A stretch of 45,921 bases of DNA, taken from the IMG/VR virus record IMGVR_UViG_3300030060_001743, positions 1 through 45,921 of that record; one strand, given 5' to 3'. The DNA is from a virus. The translations under genes were made by a program, and so were the position numbers. The notes below the pieces were generated by a model. It was not told the DNA's origin. It saw nothing but the letters and a program-made list of their open reading frames with translations, and made no database searches. How positions within the stretch are numbered: the first letter of the stretch is position 1; each line of letters opens with the position of its first letter. This document shows, piece after piece, positions 10,877 to 30,084 of this stretch.

Positions 10877-10896
10877 AGTAACTCCTTTCAGATATT

Positions 10897-13129: not shown

Positions 13130-13137
13130 AGTTTCTC

Positions 13138-13695: not shown

Positions 13696-15248
13696 ATTTT
13701 TAATCCTGTTACCCAATTAATTTGTCTACGTGCTGATTGTACAAAATCATCTGGTCTAGATTCATCATATAATTCCATAGATTTACTTCTTGGTGGCTTA
13801 GCAAAAAAGTCTGCATAATATAACCCGTCAAGTAAATCGTCGTGTCTTCCCTTAGGAAACTGAAACAATTCATCTACTAATTCTGTATGTTCTTTACGTA
13901 CAAAAAGTTTCTTACTATTTACTATACTACCTAAAGACATTTCTAACCTATCTTCTTTTTTAATACCGTGAGGTGGTCTCACACCTTTATTAATACCTGG
14001 TAATAGTCTTCTTTCTGATGTTGCTATTCTTTCTACCATATCTCTAACCATTTCTTGAGCACCTACTGTTTCCACAGCAACTCTCTTTAGTGGTACATAT
14101 TTTTTAGCATACTCCATAATTTTTTTTGGCATATCAAATGCTGGTATCTTATCGTGAAAGTAATCTATAACATATCTATTTTTAAATGCGTCTATACCCA
14201 TAACCATAATTACTTGATAGTCAGATGATTTAGTAGCAGTGTGAGCTAAGTCAACTCCCATATATACATTGATTGGTATTAGTTCAGTATCATTTCTTAA
14301 ACAAGCAAACCCATTGTTGTTTATAAATTCGTAATTATGATTTTGTATTTTATCCATTTGAAACGTAGCACTCGCTACATCTCTAGCGTCATTTAAATAT
14401 TCTTGTGCAAACTTATCTATTTTACCTGCTTCTATAAACTCTTGTCTTTTTTGTTTTAGTTTAGATAATGGAAATTGTTCGTTCCATACTGCCTTACCGT
14501 CTTCAATAGCTCTAATAAATGTAACGTCCCAAGGATAAGATTTATTTTCTTTTTGAGAATCTAAATATCCGTCGTGTATATTTTGCAAGAAAGCGTCATA
14601 GTGTACAATAGTTCCTGATAACCATATCCAACCTTCTTTACCTGGAGATTCTTCTAATGCTGGGTATACCGTAGATACAATCCATTGTTTAATCTCATCA
14701 CGTCTATCTGCTGTTTTAGTATTTAGTTCTGATTCAAAGTCATCAAGTATAATACCAGTATATCTAGAATCTACTTCAGAACGACCTCTAAGTCTTTGTG
14801 ATGTACCCTTAGCTATAATTCTATGTCCTTTAGTTGTTACTAAATCTTTTTCTGTCCAACGTAGCTTTTCATCTCCACCACATAAATTACCAAAGTAATA
14901 TCTAATAGCATCATTGTTTTCTAAATGTGAACGTATATATTTTAAATGGTCGATTGCCTGACCTTGTTCTTCTGCTACCCAAGCCATAAACTGTGCTTGG
15001 TCTTTAGGTGTGAAACAAAGCTTGTGCATAATGGCTGCTTTCATTAATACTGATTTTCCAAAACCTCTAGGAAGCACGTTACAAATACGTGCTCCAGGTT
15101 TTGTACTAATTAATTTTTTACCTAATTCATAATGAAAGGGGGGTGATTCAGATTTATGTAAAAAATCATTTGGTAAAAATAATTTACCAAACAGAATTAA
15201 ATCTTTAGAAGCTTTATGTAGTATTTGTTCTTTTTCAGATATAGTCAT
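13692..15248 (-). CDS. terL: Terminase large subunit, 518 aa
   Basis: The packaging motor and headful or site nuclease. The ATPase has a Walker A-like LPRGFGKS (near residue 60) and Walker B GIILDDFESE. The nuclease domain has MGVDLAHT with an Asp, and HDDLLDGLYYADFF near the C-terminus. It is coupled by TAATG to the upstream 80-aa gene and by ATGA to the lysozyme gene. Family membership is clear. Confidence 0.93.
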   Translation of the reverse strand: MTISEKEQILHKASKDLILFGKLFLPNDFLHKSESPPFHYELGKKLISTKPGARICNVLPRGFGKSVLMKAAIMHKLCFTPKDQAQFMAWVAEEQGQAIDHLKYIRSHLENNDAIRYYFGNLCGGDEKLRWTEKDLVTTKGHRIIAKGTSQRLRGRSEVDSRYTGIILDDFESELNTKTADRRDEIKQWIVSTVYPALEESPGKEGWIWLSGTIVHYDAFLQNIHDGYLDSQKENKSYPWDVTFIRAIEDGKAVWNEQFPLSKLKQKRQEFIEAGKIDKFAQEYLNDARDVASATFQMDKIQNHNYEFINNNGFACLRNDTELIPINVYMGVDLAHTATKSSDYQVIMVMGIDAFKNRYVIDYFHDKIPAFDMPKKIMEYAKKYVPLKRVAVETVGAQEMVRDMVERIATSERRLLPGINKGVRPPHGIKKEDRLEMSLGSIVNSKKLFVRKEHTELVDELFQFPKGRHDDLLDGLYYADFFAKPPRSKSMELYDESRPDDFVQSARRQINWVTGLKI

Positions 15249-15490
15249 TATGCTTCTCCGTGACCTTTAATAAAACTTTTCGATATACCAACGAGTTCTC
15301 CTTCTTCATCATATACTGCAAAACAAGGACACTCAGTAACCATATATGTTTCTTCTTCTTGTTCTATTTCTGCTACTAGCTCAGGAAAAATATAATTAAC
15401 AAAGGAGATAATACTAGTATGTTTGCTAGTCTTAGTCTTCTTCTGACATATCAGGCAGTTGACGAGTTTGCTCGGCGATTTTTTTGACAT
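15248..15490 (-). CDS. Cysteine-containing hypothetical protein between the terminase genes, 80 aa
   Basis: CLICQKK near the N-terminus and TECPCF in the middle could together bind a metal. The rest is acidic and hydrophobic (FVNYIFPELVAEIEQEEE). Its start lies 59 nt inside the small terminase gene, with AGGGGG 5 nt before the ATG, and its stop overlaps the terL ATG. A packaging accessory protein is likely from location, but nothing in the sequence proves it. Confidence 0.7.
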   Translation of the reverse strand: MSKKSPSKLVNCLICQKKTKTSKHTSIISFVNYIFPELVAEIEQEEETYMVTECPCFAVYDEEGELVGISKSFIKGHGEA

Positions 15491-16193
15491 TTTTACCCCC
15501 TTCTAAGACTTCTAATTGTTCAGGTGTAAAACCTTGGAACAACTGTATAGACTCAGTTTTCTGTTCTTTCTTACCTAATATACCAGATATTTCCATTAAT
15601 ATTTTGATAGATGCAAGCTTATCACTATCTCTAGCTTCTTCGCTATCGACAATATCTTTTGTTTTTTGTAACAAATATTCTGGTGTAATATCTGTTTTAT
15701 GTAATATTTTTTCTATTTCTTTTTCTATCAAGGTACTTATCCTTTCTGTTCTTAACAATAAACTAGTACGTCTTTTAATATACTTTTCTGACTTAGCATC
15801 AGGAAAAGCTTTCTTAAAAGCATCAGTAACACCTTCGCCTTTTGCAATATATCTAGCAAATATATATTCTTGTTTACTAGGTTTTTCTTTATTTAGTACT
15901 CTTTGTTCTTCAAACAAACCACTAAAGTTATAAATGTTAGGTCTCATTTCGCCTGACATCTTATTGGTAGGAGCACATCTAAACATACCGACGACTGTTC
16001 TTACATACGCTTGACCGTTGAGCTCACCACGTTCTAAAATTTGACAAACCTGCTTATCATCTGTTAAAACCCAAGAATTTAAAGGTGCTACTCTCCAATC
16101 TTTGTGTATATCTTTTAATGACATAACCTGTCGAGCTTCATCTTTATTGTTATATAAAACGTGCTCCTTACCTTTTATAATTCTTGTCTGCAT
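15432..16193 (-). CDS. terS: Terminase small subunit, 253 aa
   Basis: Binds the packaging site and loads the large subunit. Residues about 105-150 show the TerS DNA-binding pattern (KQEYIFARYIAKGEGVTDAF followed by KKAFPDAKSEKYIKRR), then helices for ring assembly (SIKILMEISGILG). An extra N-terminal domain of about 100 residues (APLNSWVLTDDKQVCQILER) is unlike minimal TerS proteins and may be a separate beta domain. It starts on TAATG after the phosphoesterase. Confidence 0.82.
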   Translation of the reverse strand: MQTRIIKGKEHVLYNNKDEARQVMSLKDIHKDWRVAPLNSWVLTDDKQVCQILERGELNGQAYVRTVVGMFRCAPTNKMSGEMRPNIYNFSGLFEEQRVLNKEKPSKQEYIFARYIAKGEGVTDAFKKAFPDAKSEKYIKRRTSLLLRTERISTLIEKEIEKILHKTDITPEYLLQKTKDIVDSEEARDSDKLASIKILMEISGILGKKEQKTESIQLFQGFTPEQLEVLEGGKNVKKIAEQTRQLPDMSEED

Positions 16194-16936
16194 TATTTTC
16201 TATGAACTATATATTCAGGGTCTTTGTTAGATAATCTAACTTCTACCCAACCTTTTGTTTGTGGTTCTAGTACAGCATATCTAGCATATTCTGCATATCC
16301 AATAAAAGAACCGCCACGAACAAACCATTGTCTTTTAACTTCTTCGTTTTCTTTTAATATTTCAAAAGAATCAATAGGTTTTGCATATAGTTGATGATTA
16401 TGTCCTAAATAATACATATCAGCGTCTGGAAATATGTTTCTAAGTCTAGTTAACTCCATATCTCCGTTCTTTGCACCGCTCTTACCGTGCCCACTTGCAA
16501 AAGTAAACACACCAGACCCGTAATTTATTTGTGCATACCCTGGAAAAGGGAAGTATGGTACTTCTAAATCATCACACATAACACGCATAATGTCTATACC
16601 TGCTAATCTAACTGAACGTAACGTGTCGTGATTACCGCCTCGAATAAATAAACACTTATTCATAATAGGTCTTACCATATCTACGAATTGAGAGTACTGT
16701 TCGTTGTTATCAAATAGCTGGTCGCCTTCTGGTATGTGATAGTTAGGTGGAATAAACTCTAACATATCTCCATTTCCAAACCATAAAGCGTTTGGGTCTT
16801 TTTTAATCTTGTCTATAGCCTTTAAAAACAGCAATCTATCAAAAACTTTACTACCTACGTGTACATCTGTAAGACAATGTAGGTTTATTTTTTTATTCTT
16901 TACTGTTTTTTCTAAAACTTTACCTGGAACTATCAT
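16193..16936 (-). CDS. Calcineurin-type metallophosphoesterase, 247 aa
   Basis: All metal-binding motifs of the superfamily are present in order: DVHVG, GNGD, GNHD, GHG and GHNH. The enzyme hydrolyses a phosphoester or pyrophosphate; the substrate cannot be read from sequence. GAGG 6 nt before the ATG at 16936 favours this start over an ATG 8 codons upstream. The N-terminus overlaps the end of the NTP-PPase gene. Placement next to terminase suggests either DNA-end processing or nucleotide turnover. Confidence 0.88.
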   Translation of the reverse strand: MIVPGKVLEKTVKNKKINLHCLTDVHVGSKVFDRLLFLKAIDKIKKDPNALWFGNGDMLEFIPPNYHIPEGDQLFDNNEQYSQFVDMVRPIMNKCLFIRGGNHDTLRSVRLAGIDIMRVMCDDLEVPYFPFPGYAQINYGSGVFTFASGHGKSGAKNGDMELTRLRNIFPDADMYYLGHNHQLYAKPIDSFEILKENEEVKRQWFVRGGSFIGYAEYARYAVLEPQTKGWVEVRLSNKDPEYIVHRK

Positions 16937-17246
16937 CTGATTCCTCAAATTTTTGTTCATACATATAATAACTCATAAGTATTACACTATAATTTATTAA
17001 ATCCAACATAGTGTCTTCTACCTTTTCGTCTTTTACTGCTGCTTCAGTATTTCTTTCTAGCAAATTTGCTATTCTTGCTATCTTATCTGATATACGAACT
17101 AGTATTCCTGTAGATGTATTGCATATTTTAATAGCTTCTACCATTTCAAAGTTAGAAAAAGGCTCATCTTGTTGAGCATAGTCGATATTCTTATTATCAC
17201 ACAATGCCTTAGCTTTATTTATTATAGCATCATAGTTAGGAATCAT
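16920..17246 (-). CDS. MazG-like NTP pyrophosphohydrolase, DUF1599 type, 108 aa
   Basis: The pattern RISDKIARIANLLERN, then KVEDTMLDLINYSVILM, is that of the all-alpha NTP-PPase family known as nucleotide-modification-associated domain 1 (DUF1599). The acidic ExxD-type residues bind Mg. Such enzymes hydrolyse particular (d)NTPs and occur in phages that alter nucleotide pools. GGGAGG 5 nt before the ATG at 17246 decides the start (MIPNYDAI). The gene overlaps both neighbours. Confidence 0.75.
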   Translation of the reverse strand: MIPNYDAIINKAKALCDNKNIDYAQQDEPFSNFEMVEAIKICNTSTGILVRISDKIARIANLLERNTEAAVKDEKVEDTMLDLINYSVILMSYYMYEQKFEESDDSSR

Positions 17247-17577
17247 ATTGTCCTCCCATTTTAATCCACAAGTATTCTCCAAAACCTAGCTTAAATAACG
17301 AATTTGCTAGCACTTGTACTTGTGTTTCAGTTAATCCTAAGCTTGTACCATACGTAACACCGTGTAATACTTCGTGTATTAACACTTCTAGTATCTTAGA
17401 GTCTTTCATTTCTCTTTCTACTATAATATCGCAGTTACGCATAGATATAGCTCCTAGTATTTCTACTTCATCACTACCGTATTGAGCTTTTTCCCCTTCT
17501 ATAAATCTAACCGTGTAATTATGGTTATTTATATCTAGAGATAAAGGTTTATTTGGTATCTTTAGTTTCTTTTTCAT
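17236..17577 (-). CDS. HExxH putative metallopeptidase, 113 aa
   Basis: IHEVLHGVTYG around residue 67 is a zinc-protease HExxH helix. Beta strands precede it (YTVRFIEG, CDIIVERE), and a helix (LTETQVQVLANSLFKLGFG) follows, as in compact ImmA/SprT-like minimal metalloprotease folds. The third zinc ligand is uncertain. Related small proteins are common near phage regulatory genes. Here it overlaps the NTP-PPase start. Substrate is unknown. Confidence 0.7.
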   Translation of the reverse strand: MKKKLKIPNKPLSLDINNHNYTVRFIEGEKAQYGSDEVEILGAISMRNCDIIVEREMKDSKILEVLIHEVLHGVTYGTSLGLTETQVQVLANSLFKLGFGEYLWIKMGGQYDS

Positions 17578-17770
17578 TAGCTCTCTTTTCTATTGACGTT
17601 TGTAAATATTTATTAAATTTTTGTGTATCTTTTTTCATTTCTATATATTTATTAATGACTGACTCTATCAACATTAATTTTTCTTGTATACTAAACATTT
17701 CTTGTCTTAAGAGAGCAATATTGTAAACTAAATCTTTTTTCGAAGGTTTCTTTGGTTTATGTATTGCCAT
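17549..17770 (-). CDS. First gene of the leftward operon: small helical protein, 73 aa
   Basis: The start is set at the ATG at 17770 (MAIHKPKKPSKKDLVYN); a longer frame upstream would cross the promoter. There is no Shine-Dalgarno sequence, and the -10 box ends 7 nt before the ATG, so the message is probably leaderless. The protein is basic with a probable coiled coil (LLRQEMFSIQEKLMLIESVI). Function is unknown. As first gene of the structural unit it could be regulatory. Confidence 0.65.
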   Translation of the reverse strand: MAIHKPKKPSKKDLVYNIALLRQEMFSIQEKLMLIESVINKYIEMKKDTQKFNKYLQTSIEKRANEKETKDTK

Positions 17771-17805
17771 ATAAAAGTTTATAGTATATATTTTATATAT
17801 GTCAA
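17770..17805 (-). promoter_or_regulatory. Leftward promoter of the structural operon
   Basis: Reading leftward: TTGACA (17805-17800), 16 nt of pure AT-rich spacer ending in C, then TATAAA (17783-17778). Both boxes are near the sigma-70 consensus. The predicted start point falls at or next to the ATG at 17770. It stands back to back with the rightward promoter at 17848. Confidence 0.7.
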
Positions 17806-17847
17806 GGTTTTTTTTAAAAAAAATACAATAACGGAATAAAGTTCTAC

Positions 17848-17876
17848 TTGACAACGCACGATTTTTGTTTTAACTT
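17848..17876 (+). promoter_or_regulatory. Rightward promoter in the divergent control region
   Basis: TTGACA (17848-17853), 17 nt, TAACTT (17871-17876). It shares the exact -35 and spacing of the other rightward promoters, with a weaker -10. Transcription from here would give a leader of about 510 nt before the first coding sequence at 18396. Confidence 0.55.
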
Positions 17877-17885
17877 CTAGTTAGA

Positions 17886-17929
17886 ATAACTATACGGAGT
17901 TTACTAGCTAGTATAGTTAGTATAGTTAT
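17886..17929. repeat. 10-bp inverted repeat flanking a repeated half-site
   Basis: ATAACTATAC (17886-17895) and its perfect reverse complement GTATAGTTAT (17920-17929). A further GTATAGTTA copy lies at 17911-17919. The element lies just downstream of the rightward -10 box, where a repressor would block transcription. Confidence 0.6.
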
Positions 17930-17937
17930 CTGACCCC

Positions 17938-17963
17938 CTAAATTAAGCAATATCAAGACTTAG
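17938..17963. repeat. 26-bp element, copy 1
   Basis: Begins CTAAATTAAG and ends AGACTTAG. It matches the element at 18084-18109 at 20 of 26 positions. Each copy starts CTAA and ends TTAG, making a weak dyad. Likely a binding site for a phage protein. Confidence 0.45.
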
Positions 17964-18083
17964 AACCTTGTCAGACCCCCACAAACTGAAAAAATAACGC
18001 AAGTATGTGTGTTTCTCTTTTTTTACGTGCAATACCCCCGCCCGTGCCAAATTACGTTAGGAAATCTAGATTGACCTTTTGCT

Positions 18084-18109
18084 CTAAGTTAAGTTATTGC
18101 TAGACTTAG
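18084..18109. repeat. 26-bp element, copy 2
   Basis: Begins CTAAGTTAAG and ends AGACTTAG. In this copy CTAAGT/ACTTAG is a perfect 6-bp inverted repeat. The spacing of 146 bp between copies could allow looping by one bound factor. Confidence 0.45.
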
Positions 18110-18129
18110 CTCGGTGCTCAGTAGACCCG

Positions 18130-18143
18130 ACCGACCAGTCGGT
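18130..18143. promoter_or_regulatory. 14-bp dyad, possible operator
   Basis: ACCGAC-CA-GTCGGT is a perfect inverted repeat with a 2-bp centre. It is too tight for a good RNA hairpin and has no T run directly after it, so a protein-binding site is the better reading. Confidence 0.4.
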
Positions 18144-18270
18144 TTATATATGATTTGAGCACTTTGCCTGACCAGTTCCGTACATTTGAGCACCCTCGCA
18201 TAAGCTTGCCAAAATTGCTACTAAGCCCTAGCTTTACCGACGGCAAAGAAATCTTTAGCAAAATTAGTGC

Positions 18271-18300
18271 TTGACAACTTGGAAAGGCTCGCCGTAATAT
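18271..18300 (+). promoter_or_regulatory. Promoter of the acidic-protein / AAA+ cassette
   Basis: TTGACA (18271-18276), 18 nt, TAATAT (18295-18300). Transcription would begin near 18307, about 90 nt upstream of the ATG at 18396. This is the promoter closest to the sigma-70 consensus in the early region. Confidence 0.65.
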
Positions 18301-18395
18301 ATACTGCTCACGAGGGACAACCCGCCGAGACCCCGACTGAGACCTTGACAATAAAGAAAACAACTAAATATCGGCGTTTCCGAGGAGGAAAAACA

Positions 18396-18881
18396 ATGAA
18401 TAATCAGTTTGAAAACGTATACTTTACCGACGATAAAGGTCGCAACATAACGGACTTAGCGGAGGTAATGAACAACCCTATAACCGACGAGTATAGAGCG
18501 AAAGTGCTCGATATTACCGACCAAGGTGCAAACCCTGAGGCTATTGCCGACATAGATAGTGCCGAGATTTCGGCGTTTATTGACGACCTAGGGCTTAACA
18601 ATGTCGACGATATTGTGCAAGCTTTTACGTCGATAAAGGAGTACCTGGAGTCTATAACCGACGACTATAGAGACCCGCTAGTTGACTTTCTAGCCGTCGC
18701 TATAGATGTCGAGATAGGTCTCAACGGCGGTGCTATAGCCGTCGATATAGGAGACGTTTACGACGACTTCGTCGATTTCAATGCCGAGGGTATTGTATCG
18801 ACAACCACGGCGTTAAGTGCTCAAGCCGAGTACAATGCCGAAGTCTATGCCGAGGGTATAGCAACCGATTTGGACAACTAA
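18396..18881 (+). CDS. Hyperacidic protein, 161 aa (possible DNA mimic)
   Basis: The ATG at 18396 follows GAGGAGG by 7 nt; the longer frame upstream would overlap the promoter. By my count 36 of 161 residues are Asp or Glu and only 6 Lys or Arg, giving a charge near -30. Helical segments alternate with Ala/Asp-rich repeats (IADIDSAEISAFIDDLG; AEYNAEVYAEGIATDL). It is the first gene of the higher-GC cassette. I recognise no family; ArdA-type motifs are not evident. Anti-restriction or DNA mimicry is inference from charge and position. Confidence 0.75.
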   Translation: MNNQFENVYFTDDKGRNITDLAEVMNNPITDEYRAKVLDITDQGANPEAIADIDSAEISAFIDDLGLNNVDDIVQAFTSIKEYLESITDDYRDPLVDFLAVAIDVEIGLNGGAIAVDIGDVYDDFVDFNAEGIVSTTTALSAQAEYNAEVYAEGIATDLDN

Positions 18882-18888
18882 AACAACC

Positions 18889-18906
18889 GCCGACTTTATC
18901 GTCGGC
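18889..18906 (+). promoter_or_regulatory. Hairpin just before the AAA+ gene's ribosome site
   Basis: GCCGAC-TTTATC-GTCGGC is a perfect 6-bp GC-rich stem ending 1-2 nt before AAAGGAG. There is no T run, so it is not a terminator. It could set the ratio of acidic protein to ATPase by mRNA processing or by limiting ribosome access. Confidence 0.45.
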
Positions 18907-18921
18907 AAAGGAGATGAAATT

Positions 18922-20472
18922 ATGGCTTTCATAACGAAAAAGCATAACACAAACGGCTCGTCCCCGAGCGGTAGTAATGACGGGACTAGTCCAGGAAATA
19001 ACGAGATTAGTCTCGAAAACATACGCTCTTTGAACGTCAAGAAAGAGCTCAGACCACTAGCTCGAGACCTAGTCTCAAGGGCTCAAGGCTACGGCGTAAT
19101 CGATAGCCTTGACGCTAGTCAAGACCGAGAGAATATCAAGCGACAAAGCAAAGACAAGGTCGTCGACATTGTACTCGACCTGGCTCAGATGTGCGAGGAC
19201 AAGACGGGCAAAAAGCTCTATATTGACGGCAATAGTGGCAACACTGAGAGTACTACTGATAGTGGTAGCGGTCAAGGTGGTCAAGGTCAAGGCGGTGGGG
19301 GTATACCCGACCTGAAAGACCTAGCTCAGACGAAGTCTGGGACTGGTGCTCAAGGTGGTAGCGGTGGCTCTAGTAGCGACGGCACTAGTAATGAAGGCGA
19401 CGGAGACGGCGACGACGATACTAGTACTGACGACACTAGTACTGAGCCTTCCGAGCCTAGCACTGACCCGAACGACCCGCCGACAATGCAAGACATACAA
19501 GAGCTAATTCAGTCGGCATTAACTCAAACCAAGGTAGTGCCAAAGCCAACTACTACGCCGTCGGCTAGTGGTAAGCTCGAGCACTGGCAAATGCCGTTGC
19601 TCAAGGCTATTGTCGACACAAATAGACAAGCTCTACTTGTGGGTGGTGCGGGTACTGGAAAGACGACTATTGCCGAGCAAATAGCTCAGTACTTAGGCTT
19701 TGATGTCGACAAGCAATTCTATTCTATCTCGCTAAGTAGCGGAGTTTCCGAGGCTCACTTGACTGGACGTATGAATATGAAGGGCGAATTTATCGACACT
19801 GAATTCTTGAACATAGTCGAGAACGGCGGGGTTATTCTACTCGACGAGTTTGATAACGCCGACCCCGACGTATTGGTCGGGCTTAATTCGCTATTAGCTA
19901 ACGACGTAATGAGCACCCCGCTCAGACGTGGGAACGAGATAGCGAGACGAGCCAAGAATTGCTACATTATAGCGACGGCTAATACCTGGGGCAACGGCTC
20001 TAGTGGCTCGGCGGGTTATGTCCGTAAGCAACTAGATACGGCGACACTAGACCGATTTGTATGTAGCAAAATGTATCTCGGTCAAGACCGACGCATTGAG
20101 AACTTGGTCTATGGTTTAGCCGACGAGAAACCAAGATACCCTAAGAGTTTCGAAACTCTAGCCGACAATAGTCCGAAGGGTATTATGCAAGAGGTCAAGA
20201 AATTGCGTACAAGTCTACGAGCAATCAAGACTAGTGTCGACGACCCTAGACGAAATGTTCGCAAGATTGTGGGTATTCGAGCTAGTGCTCAAGGTGCAAA
20301 GTTAATACGTCAAGCTAACTTCGACTTCCGCTCAGTGCTCGAATTGTATCTCAGTAATTGGACGGACGACGAACTCGCTACTATCGAGGTCAGTAGAAAA
20401 CACAATACGAAAGACGACTACTTTCAATACGACTTTAGTCGCTTTTGTGAAAGCAATAGGTTAGCACAATGA
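18922..20472 (+). CDS. CobS/MoxR-type AAA+ ATPase, 516 aa
   Basis: The C-terminal half is an AAA+ module: Walker A GGAGTGKTT near residue 240, Walker B VILLDEFDNAD, sensor 1 IIATANTWG and arginine finger LDRF, as in CobS/MoxR/dynein-like ATPases that remodel a partner. The N-terminal 190 residues are unusual: a short helical domain, then a Gly/Ser/Thr/Asp linker of about 80 residues (GQGGQGQGGGG, DGDGDDDTSTDD). GC is about 47% in a sampled line, well above the structural genes. The stop overlaps the next gene as ATGA, tying it to its putative VWA-like partner. Confidence 0.85.
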   Translation: MAFITKKHNTNGSSPSGSNDGTSPGNNEISLENIRSLNVKKELRPLARDLVSRAQGYGVIDSLDASQDRENIKRQSKDKVVDIVLDLAQMCEDKTGKKLYIDGNSGNTESTTDSGSGQGGQGQGGGGIPDLKDLAQTKSGTGAQGGSGGSSSDGTSNEGDGDGDDDTSTDDTSTEPSEPSTDPNDPPTMQDIQELIQSALTQTKVVPKPTTTPSASGKLEHWQMPLLKAIVDTNRQALLVGGAGTGKTTIAEQIAQYLGFDVDKQFYSISLSSGVSEAHLTGRMNMKGEFIDTEFLNIVENGGVILLDEFDNADPDVLVGLNSLLANDVMSTPLRRGNEIARRAKNCYIIATANTWGNGSSGSAGYVRKQLDTATLDRFVCSKMYLGQDRRIENLVYGLADEKPRYPKSFETLADNSPKGIMQEVKKLRTSLRAIKTSVDDPRRNVRKIVGIRASAQGAKLIRQANFDFRSVLELYLSNWTDDELATIEVSRKHNTKDDYFQYDFSRFCESNRLAQ

Positions 20473-21437
20473 GCGTTAAATACGACGACTTAATCGAACA
20501 CAACGTCAAGGCGTACAACAAGCACGAGCTCGCCAAGCTTTGCAACGGCGGAGGTGCTCAAGTCAAGAGCTCGGCTCGTATCATAGCTATCGAGTATGAA
20601 AGTATCGACGATATGCTTAAGGTACTTAAGCAAGCCGACACTGATATATGGGAGCGAACTCTTGACCGCCAGTACGAGATGTGGTGGACAATGTCCGACG
20701 TTATTGACATTGAAGGTAGGCAAGAGCAACTCGATATAATACGTCGAGGTTATAGCACGACGAGTATATACGAGCACTACACCGAGCTCAAGCGTAAGCT
20801 CAACGCTAACCCCGACAACTTAGAACGTTTGGGTGCTATGGGTGTTGATTGCCGTCGTAAACGACGAGCCGACCTTGCGGGGTGTATCGTCAACATAGAT
20901 AAGGCTATGGCGGGTCTCGACCCTATGGAAAGTCTCAAGCGTCAAAACCAGTCCAAATGTGTGAGGGTATTTATAGACCTTGCTAGGCTTGCAGACGTAG
21001 AGCCCGAGCACATACTCGAGAGCTCTTGCTATGCTATTGCCGTCGCTAATACTCTTGAGGAAAAAGGTTATGCCGTCGAGATAAAGTTCGGCACTACCAA
21101 CTACAACTACGGGCTCAATGGTTGTGGTCGACATAATACAAGCGACGGAGGTAGTGTGATTGTCCGTACTTCCTTCACGGCTAAGAGACCCGACGAGCCA
21201 GTCAACGAGGCTAAGCTCTTGACCTTCTCGTCAGTAGGTATCTTTCGAGACTTCATATTCGATACTAGACGACGTATTCTCGGTCAAGGTAGTATGGGCT
21301 CAAGTCTCTACTCGGTAATTAGACCCGCAAACAACGAGGAATTCTACCGAGAGTTTGCCGATTGTGATGTCTATGTCGGACACAACTCAAGTCTCGAGAC
21401 TATCATCACGGGTATTGAAGGCGTGCTATTGTCCTAG
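20469..21437 (+). CDS. Partner of the AAA+ ATPase, degenerate VWA-like protein, 322 aa
   Basis: Starts on ATGA within the ATPase stop. Residues about 160-250 have a Rossmann-like pattern: a strand with CVRVFIDLARLADV in the place of a MIDAS loop, a helix (SSCYAIAVANTLEEKGYAV), then EIKFGT, and later LLTFSSVGIFRDFIF. This resembles the phage proteins that accompany MoxR/CobS-like ATPases (DUF7192-type), where the metal site is often lost; here DxSxS is not intact. The N-terminal helical part may bind the ATPase. Its cellular target is unknown. Confidence 0.65.
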   Translation: MSVKYDDLIEHNVKAYNKHELAKLCNGGGAQVKSSARIIAIEYESIDDMLKVLKQADTDIWERTLDRQYEMWWTMSDVIDIEGRQEQLDIIRRGYSTTSIYEHYTELKRKLNANPDNLERLGAMGVDCRRKRRADLAGCIVNIDKAMAGLDPMESLKRQNQSKCVRVFIDLARLADVEPEHILESSCYAIAVANTLEEKGYAVEIKFGTTNYNYGLNGCGRHNTSDGGSVIVRTSFTAKRPDEPVNEAKLLTFSSVGIFRDFIFDTRRRILGQGSMGSSLYSVIRPANNEEFYREFADCDVYVGHNSSLETIITGIEGVLLS

Positions 21438-21459
21438 ATTTATAACTCACGTTATAAAT
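21438..21459 (+). repeat. 9-bp perfect hairpin right after the stop codon
   Basis: ATTTATAAC-TCAC-GTTATAAAT begins directly after the TAG of the VWA-like gene. It is AT-rich and has no T run of its own. It may protect the mRNA end or help the terminator that follows 15 nt later. Confidence 0.5.
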
Positions 21460-21472
21460 TGAGCACTGAAAG

Positions 21473-21508
21473 AAGGGCTAGTAGGTTTCCTACTAGTCCT
21501 TTTTTTTT
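21473..21508 (+). terminator. Intrinsic terminator of the AAA+ cassette
   Basis: A 12-bp stem, AGGGCTAGTAGG-TTT-CCTACTAGTCCT with one G-U pair, is followed at once by T tract 21500-21508. It is one of the strongest terminators in the window and cleanly closes the higher-GC cassette. Confidence 0.85.
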
Positions 21509-21728
21509 GTCGTGCTCAAACTCTCTTCTGCTATCTCTTGATGATACATCAAGAGCACATTTTTCTGAGCACTTTCACCTACTTCTTGATTGATTTTTTT
21601 TGTAGGTTATGAGTTGACACTCAGAACTAGCAAAAAAAATACCTACACGCAAAGTCCTAGAGGGTGGGTCGAACAATCCCTTCTACCCCGCACACATTAA
21701 CGCAACCATTGACCGACGACAATGAAAC
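21509..21728. other. Gene-free stretch with alternative pairing segments
   Basis: No gene is visible between the terminator and the next promoter. CTCTTGAT/ATCAAGAG forms an 8-bp stem (about 21533-21555). GTAGGT at 21602-21607 can pair either with ACCTAC at 21577-21582 or with ACCTACA at 21641-21647 (then using TGTAGGT). Runs of 8 T and 8 A flank these. Three GAGCAC/GTGCTC words also fall here. It may be a regulatory leader or a protein-binding region. Confidence 0.4.
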
Positions 21729-21789
21729 CAAGTAATTTATTTACTACGTAAATTAATTTCTTGACAAGTACCGACTGAAACCCTTAAGA
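21729..21789 (+). promoter_or_regulatory. Promoter with upstream dyad operator, copy 1
   Basis: A 39-bp block (21729-21767) is repeated without change at 23404-23442. It contains an imperfect 11-bp inverted repeat with a 3-bp centre (core TTTAC-TAC-GTAAA), directly followed by the -35 TTGACA (21761-21766). After 17 nt comes TTAAGA (21784-21789). The weak -10 and the dyad abutting the -35 suggest activation, or repression, by a phage regulator. Confidence 0.75.
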
Positions 21790-21860
21790 TATTATATGCG
21801 AACAACGACACTACAAAATTTTTTCATCTCAATTACCGCCACATTGATTGTGGAACTAAC

Positions 21861-21925
21861 GCCCGTTGAGTTCGGTCTAGGTTGGTTAGGCGGTAGCCGT
21901 AGACCTGGACGTGTTAGAGACGGGC
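21861..21925 (+). promoter_or_regulatory. Nested hairpin in the leader of the 147-aa gene
   Basis: Three nested stems: GCCCGT (21861)/ACGGGC (21920), GGTCTA (21874)/TAGACC (21900) and GGC/GCC at the tip (21889-21898). It lies between promoter copy 1 and the ribosome site AGGAG at 21941. A structured 5' leader, possibly for mRNA stability or ligand or protein control. Confidence 0.5.
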
Positions 21926-21953
21926 AAGTATTTAATAACGAGGAGATTATAAA

Positions 21954-22397
21954 ATGAAACTGAACGAAATAACTGAAAGTCTAGCAATAGCTAGACAGAA
22001 CAAGCACACTGAGATACGTGAACGATACGAGTGGGACACTCATCAAGGCGAGATTATGTGTATGTTTGCCGACGACGCCAACGGCATTGACATCAAACGT
22101 GCTAAGTACAACGACCTTAAAAAAGGCGACCGAGTTGTTATGCTTGGTATACCAGGTATAAGTAATCACACCAGGACTGGTGTTATTATGGAGAACAAAC
22201 GTGGAGGTATTACACGTATGGTCAAAATCGACGAGGAGAACGGGTACTTTGGAGACATTGGCTCAGTCTATATCGACGAGATAGTTGCACACATCAACGA
22301 CAACGGAGAGTATATCATACTCAGTCCGACTGATACCGAGAAAAAAAATATGGCTAAGACTAGAAATCTTGCCGACAAACTATTTGGGGAGGCATAA
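21954..22397 (+). CDS. Hypothetical protein with SH3/KOW-like segment, 147 aa
   Basis: The first gene under promoter copy 1, with AGGAG 8 nt before the ATG. The middle (DLKKGDRVVMLGIPGISNHT, then RTGVIMENKRGGITRMVKID) looks like a small beta-barrel with a KGDRVV entry, as in SH3/KOW folds. The N-terminus is helical and the C-terminus is Lys/Asn-rich. Function is unknown. The stop overlaps the next start (TAATG). Confidence 0.75.
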   Translation: MKLNEITESLAIARQNKHTEIRERYEWDTHQGEIMCMFADDANGIDIKRAKYNDLKKGDRVVMLGIPGISNHTRTGVIMENKRGGITRMVKIDEENGYFGDIGSVYIDEIVAHINDNGEYIILSPTDTEKKNMAKTRNLADKLFGEA

Positions 22398-22531
22398 TGT
22401 ATTACGACGTAGACACAGACATTGTGTACTGGGCTTGCCTAACTCAAGCGGAATTATTCTTACTAATAATTTTTTGCATTTCGTTATGGGAGTTCCTAAA
22501 ATTCATTGTGAGAAAGGAGTTTCTCAGATGA
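22397..22531 (+). CDS. Small single-span membrane protein, 44 aa
   Basis: The ATG overlaps the previous stop as TAATG and the stop overlaps the next start as ATGA, so the gene is coupled on both sides, and GGGGAGG precedes it. The acidic N-terminus (MYYDVDTDIVYW) is followed by a hydrophobic span around AELFLLIIFCISLWEFLKFIV and a basic tail (RKEFLR), giving an N-out, C-in prediction. It could be a holin-like, superinfection-exclusion or host-takeover peptide. No family is recognised. Confidence 0.65.
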   Translation: MYYDVDTDIVYWACLTQAELFLLIIFCISLWEFLKFIVRKEFLR

Positions 22532-22791
22532 ACAAACTGATTATCGACATCAATCTCAATGGAGCTTGGGTGCTCGAGAGTGTTCTAATGCGGGAGTTGT
22601 TTCCCGCATTAAAGCCGAACGCTAACACTGAGCAACGCATTGAGCACGACGAAAAGCGTAAGGTGTACAAGAGAAAACTTGACGACCTAGAATACATAGA
22701 ACTATTAGCCGAGTTTAATAACAAGCTCGGGCACAAGTACGAGTTAACAAACTTAACCGACGAACAAGTCAAACAACTGGAGGAAAAATGA
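22528..22791 (+). CDS. Hypothetical protein, 87 aa
   Basis: AAGGAG stands 8 nt before the ATG at 22528, which overlaps the preceding stop (ATGA); the longer frame upstream is not used. The protein starts with a strand (KLIIDINLNGAW) followed by charged helices with DEKRKVYKRKLDDLEYIELL and a Glu/Lys-rich end. Its stop overlaps the next ATG. Unknown early protein. Confidence 0.7.
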   Translation: MNKLIIDINLNGAWVLESVLMRELFPALKPNANTEQRIEHDEKRKVYKRKLDDLEYIELLAEFNNKLGHKYELTNLTDEQVKQLEEK

Positions 22792-23114
22792 ACGAGAAAC
22801 AAGCAAAGCTATTGCTCAATAGGTATAGGAACGTTATAGTGCCTATGATGTATGCGGAGTTCAGTGCTCTAATAGACCACGAGAACGAGGACAAAACTAT
22901 AGTCCAAGGACTATTAAATAATTATATCGATAGCTTACTACTTAAGATACACGAGATACTAAACTTGACTGATACCGACGTCAAAGAAAATCTTTCAATG
23001 CACGAACGAGAAACACAATGGGCATACAAGAGTGCTCTTAGTGCGGTACGACACACGGCAAGAGAGAGAAAGATTGAGCACGGACTAGAAACATTTTACA
23101 CTGAGGAGGACTAA
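22788..23114 (+). CDS. Hypothetical helical protein, 108 aa
   Basis: All-helical by appearance (KQAKLLLNRYRNVIVPMMYA; LLNNYIDSLLLKIHEIL), with charged surfaces and no motif I know. ATGA coupling to the upstream gene and TAATG coupling to the next show one polycistronic message. Unknown function in the early region. Confidence 0.7.
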   Translation: MNEKQAKLLLNRYRNVIVPMMYAEFSALIDHENEDKTIVQGLLNNYIDSLLLKIHEILNLTDTDVKENLSMHERETQWAYKSALSAVRHTARERKIEHGLETFYTEED

Positions 23115-23410
23115 TGGCGATAAAAAAACCAATCAAATATTCCATAGAGGAATATAGCCAAGACACGAGAGAGTATGTTGTCGAGAGTGAGCACCAACTT
23201 AATCGAGATGAAATAGTCGAGGTTATATCAAGTGCTTGTCTACACAACCACAATACAAAGGTAGGCGTTTACGTGGAAGGCAAGGGCAAGGCATACGTTA
23301 AACACGTAGACACAATCTACGGAGACGATAGCCAAGTAAATGTCTACGAGGCAGACGATAGCAATCATAGTCTCAAGGACAATAGATTAACAAAGTTAAT
23401 GGACAAGTAA
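23114..23410 (+). CDS. Hypothetical alpha/beta protein, 98 aa
   Basis: The first half contains REYVVESEHQLNRDEIVEVI, the second strands with VGVYVEGKGKAYVKHVDTI. The TAA stop at 23408-23410 lies inside the second copy of the 39-bp promoter block, so the gene ends exactly where the next promoter begins. No family is recognised. Confidence 0.7.
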   Translation: MAIKKPIKYSIEEYSQDTREYVVESEHQLNRDEIVEVISSACLHNHNTKVGVYVEGKGKAYVKHVDTIYGDDSQVNVYEADDSNHSLKDNRLTKLMDK

Positions 23411-23464
23411 TTTATTTACTACGTAAATTAATTTCTTGACAAATACAATTTGAAATGCTTAAGT
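23404..23464 (+). promoter_or_regulatory. Promoter with upstream dyad operator, copy 2
   Basis: Identical 39-bp block (23404-23442) to copy 1, with the TTTAC-TAC-GTAAA dyad and -35 TTGACA (23436-23441), then 17 nt and TTAAGT (23459-23464). Sequence identity stops right after the -35, which points to selection on the operator plus -35. It drives the genes from 23501. Confidence 0.75.
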
Positions 23465-23500
23465 TGATAACATTGAACGACATCACGAGGAGGAAACGAT

Positions 23501-24010
23501 ATGTCTAAACAGATAAAACAAATGCAACAATTACTCGACGATATTGACGACGACAATAAATGTACGTCAATGGAAGTCGACGACAAAGATAGACAACACG
23601 AGGAGGTTATAGAGTTTTCTACGTGGAAAACTAACGAGCCAATGCTTGAGAGTGAGCGTACTAGACTTAAAAACAATCTAGAGTGTGGCTTGTCTATGCT
23701 ACAACCCTTAGAATTATTAGGGGTATTCCAAGTTGTGTCTGACGCAATACGAGAGGCAAAAATTGTAGAGCTAAAAGATATAACAAGTGCTCAACCAGTT
23801 GTTGACCAACACGGCAACAAACACATACACCTTGAGAATATGGGTGGCGATAGCCAACCAGGCGACAAAATCAAATTGATTATGATGAAACTCATATCCG
23901 AGGCGGAGCTATGTATATCTATGCTAGATAATATGTATGAAGTAGCTCGTATGAAACACGAGAAAGAACAAAACCCGTCTATTAATCCGAAGGAGGTGGC
24001 TAATGCCTAA
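23501..24010 (+). CDS. Hypothetical acidic protein, 169 aa
   Basis: The N-terminus is strongly acidic (QLLDDIDDDNKCTSMEVDDK). A helical middle part (LKNNLECGLSMLQPLELLGV) is followed by DQHGNKHIHLENMGGD and a C-terminal helix. GAGGAGG precedes the ATG. It is the first gene of the unit under promoter copy 2. I recognise no family. Confidence 0.7.
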   Translation: MSKQIKQMQQLLDDIDDDNKCTSMEVDDKDRQHEEVIEFSTWKTNEPMLESERTRLKNNLECGLSMLQPLELLGVFQVVSDAIREAKIVELKDITSAQPVVDQHGNKHIHLENMGGDSQPGDKIKLIMMKLISEAELCISMLDNMYEVARMKHEKEQNPSINPKEVANA

Positions 24011-24311
24011 AGACAAATCAGTAAAGGTTGGTAAAGGTTTTACCAAAACTAAAACAGACGCACCTAGTCAAAAAGAAATCGAACAAGCACGAGACTTTGT
24101 ATCAAGTGCCCGAGGTCAACTTATATTAGGTCAAGCTCTTGCTATTGCAAGTCGGGAGCTTAGAGACAAAGAGCCAAGCAACGCAAGTGATATGGCGTAC
24201 ATTGGTAAGACTTTGTTCTCGGTATTCTATCACATATACACTGACGAGTACCAAGAGATAATGAAAAAAGCTCAAGCCGAGGCTAATAAACTAAATCAAC
24301 AAAGTACGTAA
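24003..24311 (+). CDS. Hypothetical protein, 102 aa
   Basis: Overlaps the upstream gene by 8 nt and has GGAGG before its ATG. A basic, flexible N-terminus (MPKDKSVKVGKGFTKTKTD) leads to helices with ARDFVSSARGQLILGQALAI and SVFYHIYTDEYQEIMKKAQA. It ends just before a terminator. Unknown. Confidence 0.7.
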   Translation: MPKDKSVKVGKGFTKTKTDAPSQKEIEQARDFVSSARGQLILGQALAIASRELRDKEPSNASDMAYIGKTLFSVFYHIYTDEYQEIMKKAQAEANKLNQQST

Positions 24312-24338
24312 TGGTACGACACACAAACGGAGACGGAG

Positions 24339-24361
24339 ACCCCCTAGCAATAGGGGGTTTT
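24339..24361 (+). terminator. Intrinsic terminator after the 102-aa gene
   Basis: ACCCCCTA-GCAA-TAGGGGGT is a perfect 8-bp stem with a GNRA-type tetraloop, followed by TTTTCTATTT. The next ribosome site starts only a few bases later, so some read-through must feed the next gene unless it has its own promoter. Confidence 0.75.
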
Positions 24362-24376
24362 CTATTTGGAGGGTAA

Positions 24377-24664
24377 ATGAAAAGACATATAACTAAAATA
24401 GAACAAGAACTAGTAGACAAACTAATCAAAGACATAGACGCAGTCTTAGAAAATGTTATGCTAGGAAGGAGTGATAAAGTGATAGAACGTGAAAAAATAT
24501 TTAGTGCTCAGATTAAAAAGCTTGAGCACCTATTGCCAAAAATGTACTGGCACGTAGACAAATACGGAGAAGTACACATAGACGCCGAAGGTATGGAGGC
24601 GGAATTAGCGGAGGCAATTAAGAAAGCTAACGAACTTATAAAGGAGTTAGGTTATGATAAGTAA
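24377..24664 (+). CDS. Hypothetical helical protein, 95 aa
   Basis: GGAGG precedes the ATG. Helices (IEQELVDKLIKDIDAVLENV; AEGMEAELAEAIKKANELIK) surround a short strand pair (YWHVDKYGEVHID). It is close to the terminator at 24339 and overlaps the next small gene by 11 nt. Unknown. Confidence 0.7.
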   Translation: MKRHITKIEQELVDKLIKDIDAVLENVMLGRSDKVIEREKIFSAQIKKLEHLLPKMYWHVDKYGEVHIDAEGMEAELAEAIKKANELIKELGYDK

Positions 24665-24794
24665 ATCAAAAGGAGACCAAGCTCTTGAAATACAAGAGAA
24701 AATAGATAAGCTAATTGACAAGCTTGAAAAGCTTGGCTTTGAGTTTATGTGGTATAATCGTATCAGTGGTATAAGGAGGCAACGTGATAAGTAA
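24654..24794 (+). CDS. Small charged protein, 46 aa
   Basis: Starts at the ATG inside the end of the 95-aa gene (AAGGAG about 9 nt upstream) and overlaps the following GTG-start gene by 11 nt. The sequence is amphipathic (ALEIQEKIDKLIDKLEKLGF) with a basic tail (RRQRDK). Coupling on both sides argues for a real gene. Function is unknown. Confidence 0.6.
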   Translation: MISKSKGDQALEIQEKIDKLIDKLEKLGFEFMWYNRISGIRRQRDK

Positions 24795-24897
24795 ATTCAT
24801 CAGTATAATTATTATGATTGGATTATTCTTTGGAATAATGTGGGGACTTAAAAAAGGTCTAAGAGCACTTGAAGTATACGAAAAAAATAAAAGTTGA
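24784..24897 (+). CDS. Small membrane protein, 37 aa, GTG start
   Basis: GGAGG lies 4-5 nt before the GTG. Residues 4-21 are a transmembrane helix (FISIIIMIGLFFGIMWGL) followed by a basic, then charged tail (KKGLRALEVYEKNKS). Tiny one-span phage proteins of this kind include holin-like and exclusion factors. I cannot say which this is. Confidence 0.65.
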   Translation: MISKFISIIIMIGLFFGIMWGLKKGLRALEVYEKNKS

Positions 24898-24966
24898 AAC
24901 TAATAACAATTATGTCGTATATTGTATTGATTGCTTGTAAGTTTAACAATATAAGGAGTTAGAGTT

Positions 24967-25158
24967 ATGCTCGATAACGAAACTACTAAGAAGTTAAGTA
25001 ATGGTAAACGCTCAATGTATACGTTTGTGTGGGAACACGAAGAGACTTTGAGCACTAGGATTTGGCAGTGTATTGCAAAAGATATACGAAAAGCCAAAGA
25101 AAATCTACATCAAAATATAGAGGTAGATGAAAAAAAAGTTAAGGTTTTTATAAATTAA
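24967..25158 (+). CDS. Hypothetical protein, 63 aa
   Basis: AGGAG 9 nt before the ATG. A basic, helix-rich small protein (SMYTFVWEHEETLSTRIWQC, then AKDIRKAKENLHQ) ending just before the promoter of the candidate RNA. The preceding 69 bp hold no gene. Unknown function. Confidence 0.65.
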   Translation: MLDNETTKKLSNGKRSMYTFVWEHEETLSTRIWQCIAKDIRKAKENLHQNIEVDEKKVKVFIN

Positions 25159-25161
25159 TTC

Positions 25162-25190
25162 TTGACTTTCGCTAACATACTAGTTAAACT
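25162..25190 (+). promoter_or_regulatory. Promoter of the candidate structured RNA
   Basis: TTGACT (25162-25167), 17 nt, TAAACT (25185-25190). The predicted start, 6-8 nt downstream, coincides with the first base of the first RNA stem (GCTAG at 25196). No coding sequence follows for 500 nt. Confidence 0.6.
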
Positions 25191-25195
25191 AGTAG

Positions 25196-25505
25196 GCTAG
25201 CTAGATAGCTCAAGCAAGAGCTATCAAGGCTAGCGGTGTGTAGCAGTGATACAAGAAAAAGTGAGAGGGTCGTTATTGTGATACCCAACTACACACCAAA
25301 GTATTAAGACCACTGGGTTGTTTGTCCTAGCTTTGTCAAGTATTGACTTTGTTTTGTCAAAACGGCGAAGTTAATATTAGCTAGGGTTTTTTTCAGTGGT
25401 CATCATTAGGGTCGCTTTGTGTACACTAAAGCTACGATATGGCTATAAGCGGTAGAGACCCTACAAAGAGAGAAGGCGAGTACGAAAGTGCTTGCCTTTT
25501 TTTTT
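25196..25505 (+). ncRNA. Candidate structured small RNA, about 305 nt
   Basis: No open frame or ribosome site is present, but stems tile the whole stretch. P1 GCTAG/CTAGC enclosing GATAGCTC/GAGCTATC (25196-25234). P2 GGTGTGTAG/CTACACACC (25235-25297). P3 ACCACTG/CAGTGGT enclosing CCTAGCT/AGCTAGG (25309-25400). P4 TAGGGTC/GACCCTA enclosing GCTTT/AAAGC and CTAC/GTAG (25407-25463). A terminator ends it. P1 and P2 abut, as in coaxially stacked RNA. It has its own promoter. It matches no RNA class I know. Confidence 0.65.
25473..25505 (+). terminator. Intrinsic terminator of the candidate RNA
   Basis: AAGGCGAG (25473-25480) pairs with CTTGCCTT (25491-25498) with one G-U pair and a 10-nt loop. T tract 25497-25505 follows directly. 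Confidence 0.8.
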
Positions 25506-25548
25506 ATTTATAATTATTTTAAAGTATTGGTATGGCTACTAAGAGAGA

Positions 25549-25674
25549 AGGTAGTAGCGTCGTATAAAACAAGAAAGGATTTCTTACCCTTGGTCGACGT
25601 TGCTATCTTTTTTTTTACGCTACCTTTGGAGGTAAAGTTGTACCAAGTGCTCAGAAATGTTGAGCACACGACGC
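25549..25674 (+). promoter_or_regulatory. Attenuator-like leader before the nuclease/recombination operon
   Basis: AGGTAGTAGCGTCG (25549-25562) pairs with CGACGTTGCTATCT (25595-25608) over 14 bp with three G-U pairs, enclosing a small AAGAAA/TTTCTT hairpin and followed by T tract 25608-25616. GCGTCGT of the left arm (25557-25563) can instead pair with ACGACGC (25668-25674), which would undo the terminator. A second hairpin, GTGCTCA/TGAGCAC, lies between. This looks like a terminator/antiterminator pair upstream of the operon. Confidence 0.55.
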
Positions 25675-25697
25675 AAAAAAAAGCAGGAGGAAAAATT

Positions 25698-26594
25698 ATG
25701 GGAGCAATAGGATTTATTTGTCCCGACAAAGAAGTAATAAAGTTTGAGGATTGTTTTGAACATTGTCGTATGTCTGAAAGATGTATGTCAGTAGCGACAT
25801 TGAAAGCTATGTCAGAACAAAGACCCGACAATCGACCACCGAGCACCACAGAACTTTTATCAGGAACTTGTGAGGCTTTCTTAAAAAGAACACAACAATA
25901 TTTCATCAACCCCCAAGAACGTGCATACGCACTTATGGGAACAATACACCACAACAATTTAGAAAATCAAAACCTAGGGTCTCAACATTTAGTTGAGGAA
26001 AAACTAGAGGGTCTAGACATCACAGGAATATTGGATTACTACGACAAAGAAAATGAAATGTTGATTGATTACAAAAATACAGGAAGCTTTAAGGCTATGA
26101 AAGTGCTCGGTATGACGAGCACTCAAGTACCAGACCCGACAGGAGCGAGATACAAACGCTCAGGAAAATGGGGTCGAGCGGGAGAAATAAAGAAAGTAAA
26201 GCAGTGGTATCGAGATGAAAGTATTGCAGACTTTGGAGACTGGTTGTATCAAGTAAATATGTATCGATATTTGCTAGAACAAAAAGGTTATAGAGTAAGG
26301 ACAATGAAACTTCAAATGAATATTAGAGACGCAAGTATGGCTATGTCAAGAGATAGAGGAATAGATAGGAACATTTACTTTGTTGATATTCCTTTTGTAG
26401 ATGACGAAGAAATAGTGGAATACTTCTCGAAGAAAAGAGATTTGTTGGTGAGTGCTCTTGAAAATCTTCAAGTTCCCAGCCAGTGCTCAGAAGCAGAAAC
26501 TTGGGAAGGAAAGAAGTGTGAAAGTTATTGCGAGGTAAGACACCTATGTCCATACGTATCAGATAATAATTTTCTTGACCAAGACGTAGAATAG
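25698..26594 (+). CDS. Cas4-like Fe-S PD-(D/E)XK nuclease, 298 aa
   Basis: AGGAGG 7 nt before the ATG at 25698 sets the start; the longer frame lies inside terminator sequence. Nuclease motifs: GTIHHNNLE (His), DITGILDYYD (Asp), EMLIDYKNT (Asp...Lys) and a QVNMYRYLLEQ helix. Four Cys near the N-terminus (FICPD...DCFEHCRMSERC) and four at the C-terminus (QCSEAETWEGKKCESYC...LC) suggest an iron-sulfur cluster as in Cas4/AddB-type exonucleases. With ERF and SSB downstream it is the probable end-resecting exonuclease of the phage recombination system. Confidence 0.8.
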   Translation: MGAIGFICPDKEVIKFEDCFEHCRMSERCMSVATLKAMSEQRPDNRPPSTTELLSGTCEAFLKRTQQYFINPQERAYALMGTIHHNNLENQNLGSQHLVEEKLEGLDITGILDYYDKENEMLIDYKNTGSFKAMKVLGMTSTQVPDPTGARYKRSGKWGRAGEIKKVKQWYRDESIADFGDWLYQVNMYRYLLEQKGYRVRTMKLQMNIRDASMAMSRDRGIDRNIYFVDIPFVDDEEIVEYFSKKRDLLVSALENLQVPSQCSEAETWEGKKCESYCEVRHLCPYVSDNNFLDQDVE

Positions 26595-26636
26595 TGATAG
26601 ATTAACGTAATAATTTTAATAAAATAAGGATATGAT

Positions 26637-27810: not shown

Positions 27811-27835
27811 AATTTGTGTCGTCGTATAAAAGGCG

Positions 27836-27873: not shown

Positions 27874-27899
27874 TTGCCACAAACAACATAGGAGAATTT

Positions 27900-30068: not shown

Positions 30069-30084
30069 GAAAGAAACAACCAAG

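Follow-up and report, generated by a model that had tools for sequence, protein, structure and literature searches.

The window analyzed here is a stretch of 45,921 nucleotides of the IMG/VR virus record IMGVR_UViG_3300030060_001743, which has a total length of 46,373 bases, and the subject of this report is a three-gene cassette within it, at positions 18271 to 21508. An acidic gene 1, a gene for an intact MoxR/CobS-like AAA+ ATPase, and a gene for a DUF7192 protein form one operon-like unit that heads the rightward gene block. The leftward genes of the window encode a head protein, a portal protein, the terminase large subunit (TerL), and a phosphoesterase ("DNA repair exonuclease"), and the rightward genes encode an exonuclease, an Erf-like annealing protein, and a DnaB-like helicase. 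The cassette is located at the divergence point between the two blocks, constitutes the first rightward operon, and is oriented opposite to the genes for terminase and head. The start of a rightward gene block is the usual seat of early host-takeover genes, and gene order suggests that the cassette is the first of the early operons; it has long been resident in this uncultured phage lineage.

All elements of the operon lie on the plus strand. The leader (18000..18395) includes a sigma-70-like promoter, TTGACA-18-TAATAT (18271..18300), recognized by its match to the consensus, and is followed by gene 1 (18396..18881; 161 amino acids, pI 4.05), the ATPase gene (18922..20472; 516 amino acids), and the DUF7192 partner gene (20469..21437; 322 amino acids), which overlaps the ATPase gene by 4 bases. 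An intrinsic terminator (21470..21508), consisting of a hairpin and a T9 tract ending near 21508, had a folding energy of -26.1 kcal/mol (z -6.4), and the next rightward promoter-like site, TTGACA-18-TAAGAT, again a consensus match, was found at 21761..21790. The anatomy proposed in the initial annotation, three genes between a promoter-like site at 18271 and a strong terminator at about 21508, was thus borne out by open reading frames (ORFs), consensus match, and folding energy.

The ATPase matched the AAA_5 family (PF07728; 3.8e-19, 69.5 bits against a cut-off of 22) and phrog_249, which is labeled "porphyrin biosynthesis" (1.1e-34), and its profile matched the solved structures of CobS (9ujv, 5.9e-6) and NorQ (9qh4, 8.9e-4). 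The cut-off of the CobS equivalog TIGR01650 was not reached (31.3 versus 558.55 bits). The Walker A and Walker B motifs were intact: in an alignment of seven sequences, the Walker A region VGGAGTGKTT (residues 240-249; 19639..19668) was invariant except for residue 245, and the Walker B motif ILLDE (residues 305-309; 19834..19848) was invariant throughout. The ATPase does contain the low-complexity linker described earlier: G, S, T, D, E, P, N, or Q occupied 81 of the 90 positions in the acidic segment of residues 101-190 (19222..19491), the length of which differed among relatives. Among the PADLOC models, only weak ATPase-core matches were obtained (best, 1.5e-4), and neither gene 1 nor the partner had a match; the accessible parts of PMC12282133 and PMC10770324 contained nothing on this ATPase.

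The partner scored 36.6 bits against DUF7192 (PF23822), for which the Pfam cut-off is 27. Two structure models of the partner were available, the first based on 7 sequences (predicted local distance difference test score [pLDDT], 58) and the second on 17 sequences (pLDDT, 72; predicted template modeling score, 0.77). For both, the von Willebrand factor A (VWA) domain of NorD ranked first among solved structures and the metal ion-dependent adhesion site (MIDAS) domain of Rea1 next, with Z scores of 5.2 and 4.8, respectively, for the first model and 6.5 and 6.0 for the second. The second model fitted NorD over 179 residues at 6.2 A and Rea1 over 154 residues at 4.8 A, and VWA/I-type domains made up most of its 50 fold rows, every Z score being below 8. 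Foldseek alone gave E values of 0.018 (first model) and 0.037 (second model) for NorD, and no match at an E value of ≤0.001 for the second model. When the first model was compared with predicted viral proteins, 13 matches had an E value of ≤0.001, seven of which were named DUF7192, and the structure matches included named DUF7192 proteins of Gordonia, Mycobacterium, and Lactobacillus phages. The likeness to the DUF7192 (PF23822)/phrog_1909 proteins of other phages thus consists in a score above the Pfam cut-off and in predicted-structure matches. These models place DUF7192 nearest in fold to the VWA adaptors of AAA+ motors, and it is this predicted fold that points to a VWA nature.

Many VWA adaptors bind their partners through the MIDAS. 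The DxSxS signature of this site was found in none of nine aligned DUF7192 proteins, the partner included. The initial annotation was therefore right that the partner is without a MIDAS, but its wording that the partner "has lost" the site does not single out this phage, because all nine members are alike in this respect. No paper naming DUF7192 was present in the library searched. Gene 1, a fast-evolving gene without a known family, had no match in Pfam, PHROGs, PADLOC, or NCBIfam; its equivalents ranged in net charge from -33 to -4, and it was recognizable in only two of four records carrying the ATPase-partner pair. Among the genes of the operon, it is the likeliest candidate for a substrate adaptor or decoy, and it may also be the substrate; that it is a DNA mimic, as raised in the initial annotation, is speculative given the missing family match and the variable charge.

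In a set of 50,697 phage records, the ATPase had hits in 425 records, none at 80% coverage, and the partner and gene 1 had none. A protein of similar size follows the ATPase in Mycobacterium phage Faith1 (283 amino acids) and Acinetobacter phage Herod (297 amino acids). The two isolate-phage DUF7192 proteins in the alignment had 17 to 20% identity to the partner. In IMG/VR, ATPase relatives were present on 21 contigs, and 15 of these also had a DUF7192-like ORF by profile, so that ATPase and partner homologs do occur together; of the six other contigs, one (L023) stops within the ATPase gene. Searches of genome_contigs found relatives of neither the partner nor the phosphoesterase, and the first-ranked isolate hits of TerL were approximately 26% identical. 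Between the window and its relatives, identity was 80 to 94% for TerL, 40 to 62% for the ATPase, and 35 to 67% for the partner, and trees of 10 taxa showed a patristic correlation between cassette and core genes of 0.88, with the cassette evolving 5.7 times faster. Taken together, family, fold, and gene order support the view that a MoxR-type ATPase and a VWA-like partner share an operon of their own at the start of the rightward block.

The cassette differs in composition from the rest of the window. Its G+C content (GC) was 0.478, whereas 357 outside windows of 3.24 kb had a mean of 0.344 (standard deviation, 0.018) and a maximum of 0.397, and the words CTAG and TCGA occurred at 8.3 and 11.5 per kb inside the cassette versus 3.9 and 1.3 per kb outside, which agrees with the raised GC and dense words first reported for it. 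Compared with synonymous-codon shuffles, the 24 CTAG copies were just above the range (mean, 15.1; range, 8 to 23) and the 36 TCGA copies were within it (mean, 28.1; range, 16 to 40); pooled over nine lineages, both words exceeded all 200 shuffles (TCGA, 334 versus 239; CTAG, 137 versus 108). The pair had a GC of 0.44 to 0.51 in 11 of 16 tabulated loci from the nine lineages, with a flanking GC at third codon positions (GC3) of 0.20 to 0.29. In all nine, GC rose by 11 to 17 points at the 300-base bin right before gene 1, and the CpG ratio was greater inside the island than outside. In the window, the left edge of the island is marked by a minus-strand gene (17549..17854; GC of the ORF, 0.22) with which the divergent terminase/structural block begins. 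Identity at fourfold-degenerate sites of the cassette fell to 0.23 to 0.34 between the window and other members, and GC3 was still near 0.5 to 0.6; the silent sites are near saturation, and the base composition has nonetheless been maintained.

The composition appears to follow position. At the loci L022 and L017, the pair has been displaced by approximately 3 kb by other genes and has a GC of 36 to 38%, and some 900 bases at the divergence point remain at 40 to 46%; eight loci with a SprT-like gene instead of the pair show a smaller rise, to 40 to 47%, in the same place. Because the displaced pair is AT rich and a smaller GC rise is seen without the pair, the raised GC seems to be a property of the promoter-proximal place rather than something imported by the genes. 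One possibility is that the island is kept up because first-transcribed DNA escapes the silencing of AT-rich DNA. Codon adaptation of highly expressed genes would account for the GC3 near 0.5 of the ATPase and partner genes, but it is an unlikely source of the island, given that the noncoding leader is likewise rich (GC of 0.45 and 52 CpG per kb in the 330 bp upstream of gene 1), that the displaced pair in L022 and L017 is AT rich, and that the head-protein gene has a GC of just 0.39.

Two other ideas about the island were rejected. The repeated word GAGCAC (see below) could not cause the GC rise, since it accounts for 14 times 6 bases in the 3.5 kb of the window island. An extra function in the silent sites was not supported, as fourfold-site identity of the ATPase and partner genes was lower than that of TerL in all nine relatives whose locus holds TerL, a rough comparison because the base compositions differ. 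Some relatives have second words that are confined to the island and are absent or almost absent from its flanks, namely, ACGCGTTC or ACGCGAAG in L005:5700-8950 and L021:4600-8000 and ACGCGTAG in L006:5720-8940 and L007.

The six palindromes GATC, CATG, GCGC, GGCC, CCGG, and CGCG did not occur at all in the window (1..45921), for which a first-order model predicts 110, 131, 40, 38, 25, and 27 copies, respectively. Within the cassette, the six were represented 0 times, compared with 35.8 in 500 codon shuffles (minimum, 21). The cassettes of the nine lineages showed 0 versus 77 for GATC, 0 versus 47 for CATG, 0 versus 44 for both GCGC and GGCC, 4 versus 26 for CCGG, and 73 versus 57 for CGCG, which was retained in L005, L006, L016, and L021; TCGA and CTAG escaped the depletion. 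Had the cassette been imported only recently, its sharing in this purge would be surprising. The sets of absent words differ among relatives: L022 and L040 keep CATG and are without ACGT, and L005, L006, and L021 keep CGCG. In a sister clade with a phosphoesterase approximately 50% identical, GATC is absent from six of the seven loci L087, L093, L102, L104, L108, L111, and L112, with 38 copies in L087.

The word GAGCAC occurred 90 times in the window, 42 times in forward and 48 times in reverse orientation, against 9.5 copies expected from base composition. A total of 68 copies were located between 18.0 and 36.4 kb, a span covering 40% of the window (binomial p, 8e-12), at a density of approximately 4 per kb from the promoter to 36.4 kb and mostly within genes. 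This dense block of GAGCAC/GTGCTC (18114..36420, both strands) starts with the island and ends at the 5' end of a gene for a 1628-amino-acid protein. When the block's genes were compared with codon shuffles, GAGCAC ranked first of 1777 six-letter words (59 versus 15.8); it was also raised in genes outside the block, at lower density (22 versus 4.2). Across ten lineages, its density per kb was 0.43 to 0.78 on the left, 2.1 to 4.7 in the island, and 1.9 to 3.7 on the right where the sequence was long enough, and the one-sided pattern recurred in the longer records G001 to G004, most weakly in G001.

In a second group of relatives, both the pair and the word are replaced. An SprT-like metalloprotease gene stands in place of the pair at L063:6044-6850 (Pfam match of 6.3e-6, HELIH motif present), with equivalents in L057, L058, L061, L064, L066, L067, L073, and L044. 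In one search, the best 80 of 133 matches were kept. Among the 37 of 81 loci with at least 2.5 kb on the right side, the pair group had GAGCAC at 2.2 to 4.0 per kb on the right in 13 of 13 loci (12 with the ATPase; L047 ends before it), the SprT group had CGTTTAA at 2.7 to 4.5 per kb and GAGCAC at no more than 0.4 per kb in 9 of 9, and the sister clade had neither pattern in 15 of 15. Whichever word is used, GAGCAC as in the window or CGTTTAAA in the SprT-type relatives, it fills one contiguous block reaching from the divergent promoter to the 5' end of the gene for the 1628-amino-acid protein, on both strands and mostly within genes (window 18114-36420; L114-L131). The word of the SprT-type relatives extends to a palindrome of approximately 18 bases around GCGTTTAAACGC, inside and between genes. 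On a tree in which words were called for 23 of 54 close-clade loci with at least 1.5 kb on the right side, the SprT/CGTTTAA group was a single clade nested within the pair/GAGCAC group, implying one switch. Among the 59 window ORFs with hits in the compared sets, only the ATPase, the DUF7192 partner, and a 2069-amino-acid leftward gene (3-6209), presumed from its size and place to be a tail fiber, were present in all four pair records and in none of the five SprT records; conversely, 11 genes of the SprT record G006, including the SprT-like gene, were present in all four other SprT records and in none of five pair records, the window included.

The nearest known parallel to the repeated word, though not to the cassette, is provided by the stoperators of mycobacteriophages, which the portion of PMC6550527 that was available describes as many genome-wide copies of a lineage-specific site whose sequence varies between lineages. 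Stoperators have mostly one orientation relative to transcription; GAGCAC differs in that it occurs in both, mostly inside genes, at approximately 4 per kb and in one block, and no repressor was identified here, the reader of GAGCAC or CGTTTAAA not having been sought by domain search. Chi-like sites were disfavored, as the word of the SprT group is palindromic and strand bias was not marked for either word. Titles and opening abstracts of papers on Chi, on GC-rich early regions, on words scattered through genomes, and on the avoidance of restriction sites contained nothing recognizable as this pattern.

The best joint explanation, to which we give a probability of about 0.5, is that the cassette encodes a fast-evolving early motor and adaptor whose target is specific to the host and perhaps bound to DNA. 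The operon would be expressed first, the ATPase would form a ring and work with DUF7192 as its VWA adaptor, as in NorQ-NorD, CobS-CobT, and RavA-ViaA, the flexible acidic linker would connect the N-terminal part of the ATPase to the motor, and the motor would extract or remodel a protein that differs between hosts. The two phage groups are unlike in the pair, in the fiber-like gene, and in the repeated word of their early half, which fits a host-facing role. The SprT-like gene in the same place, together with the coinciding change of word and fiber gene, leads to the hypothesis that the target is DNA bound and host specific; SPRTN, a protease of the SprT kind, is described in the excerpted literature as acting on proteins cross-linked to DNA in animals. 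The anti-defense role suggested in the initial annotation is possible.

The parallel with NorQ-NorD, CobS-CobT, and RavA-ViaA lies in an AAA_5 ATPase gene followed by a protein whose predicted fold is nearest to the VWA domains of NorD and Rea1; the differences are the absence of a MIDAS from DUF7192, the long acidic linker of the ATPase, and the third, acidic gene. Viral MoxR-VWA pairs are already known: adjacent ATPase and VWA genes have been described in phage 0305phi8-36, in haloviruses, in Acidianus two-tailed virus (ATV), and in cobST clusters of tailed viruses (PMC2147016, PMC7911831, PMC4124505, and PMC8651126, as far as the accessible parts go). In those parts, the partners of the halovirus pairs and cobST clusters bear a MIDAS, unlike the partner here, and neither a GC island nor repeated DNA words are mentioned. 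What is new here is a repeated early-half word that switches together with the motor genes.

Several points weigh against an early, host-facing motor. Its early expression is read from gene order, DUF7192 is without the site that many VWA adaptors use for partner binding, and the best Z score of the predicted fold, 6.5, does not by itself prove a VWA domain. The joint switch of pair, fiber-like gene, and DNA word was a single evolutionary event, so that cause and hitchhiking are inseparable. Finally, approximately unbiased (AU) tests reject the core topology on the cassette data (1.2e-5) and the cassette topology on the core data (0.013), and some exchange is therefore possible.

An extension of the motor-adaptor explanation would make motor and word one system, in which the product of the first operon handles a protein bound at the dense, lineage-specific sites of the early half; we consider this unlikely. 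Either GAGCAC or the palindrome around GCGTTTAAACGC would serve as the site, and the bound protein would be dealt with by unfolding (MoxR-VWA) or by proteolysis (SprT-like), depending on the group. If so, the two would be alternative routes for stripping off a tightly DNA-bound host protein or for clearing or loading a phage one.

A virion-assembly chaperone, for which the accessible part of PMC4124505 offers a precedent in ATV p618 with its VWA partner p892, is a quite improbable function for the pair, because the operon heads the exonuclease/annealing protein/DnaB block, diverges from the genes for terminase and head, and has a promoter-like site and a terminator of its own. Very improbable is a CobS/CobT-type cobaltochelatase helper encoded by an auxiliary metabolic gene pair, as phage cobST clusters are described in the available part of PMC8651126: the phrog_249 label and the profile match to CobS structures would fit, but the ATPase falls far below the TIGR01650 cut-off, the partner is without a MIDAS, the rate of evolution of the pair is about six times that of core genes, and a protease gene replaces it in a related group. 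Least probable of all is the recently acquired foreign module of the initial annotation, since the divergent composition, the AU rejection of a cassette tree exactly matching the core tree, and the lack of hits for the partner and gene 1 in the 50,697 phage records are outweighed by the recurrence of the island at one position across nine lineages, by raised GC in 11 of 16 tabulated loci, where that proposal required a composition not shared by relatives, by near-saturated silent sites whose GC3 is kept, and by the purge of the six palindromes as in the rest of the genome.

Elsewhere in the window, the 1628-amino-acid protein at the end of the GAGCAC block (31407..36293, minus strand) had homologs of 27 to 47% identity in 9 of 11 related records, located beside DnaB, and no family match above threshold. 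The gene at 44389-45519 had a subthreshold C-terminal match to a pretoxin HINT domain (19.2 versus 27.7 bits). In G002, an irregular stop codon in the match to DnaB lay upstream of the likely start and was discarded.

The maintained GC island shows that an odd composition in a phage genome need not signal recent transfer. Phage MoxR-VWA pairs are widespread, and the SprT-like counterpart found here provides a testable hypothesis about the target of this one.

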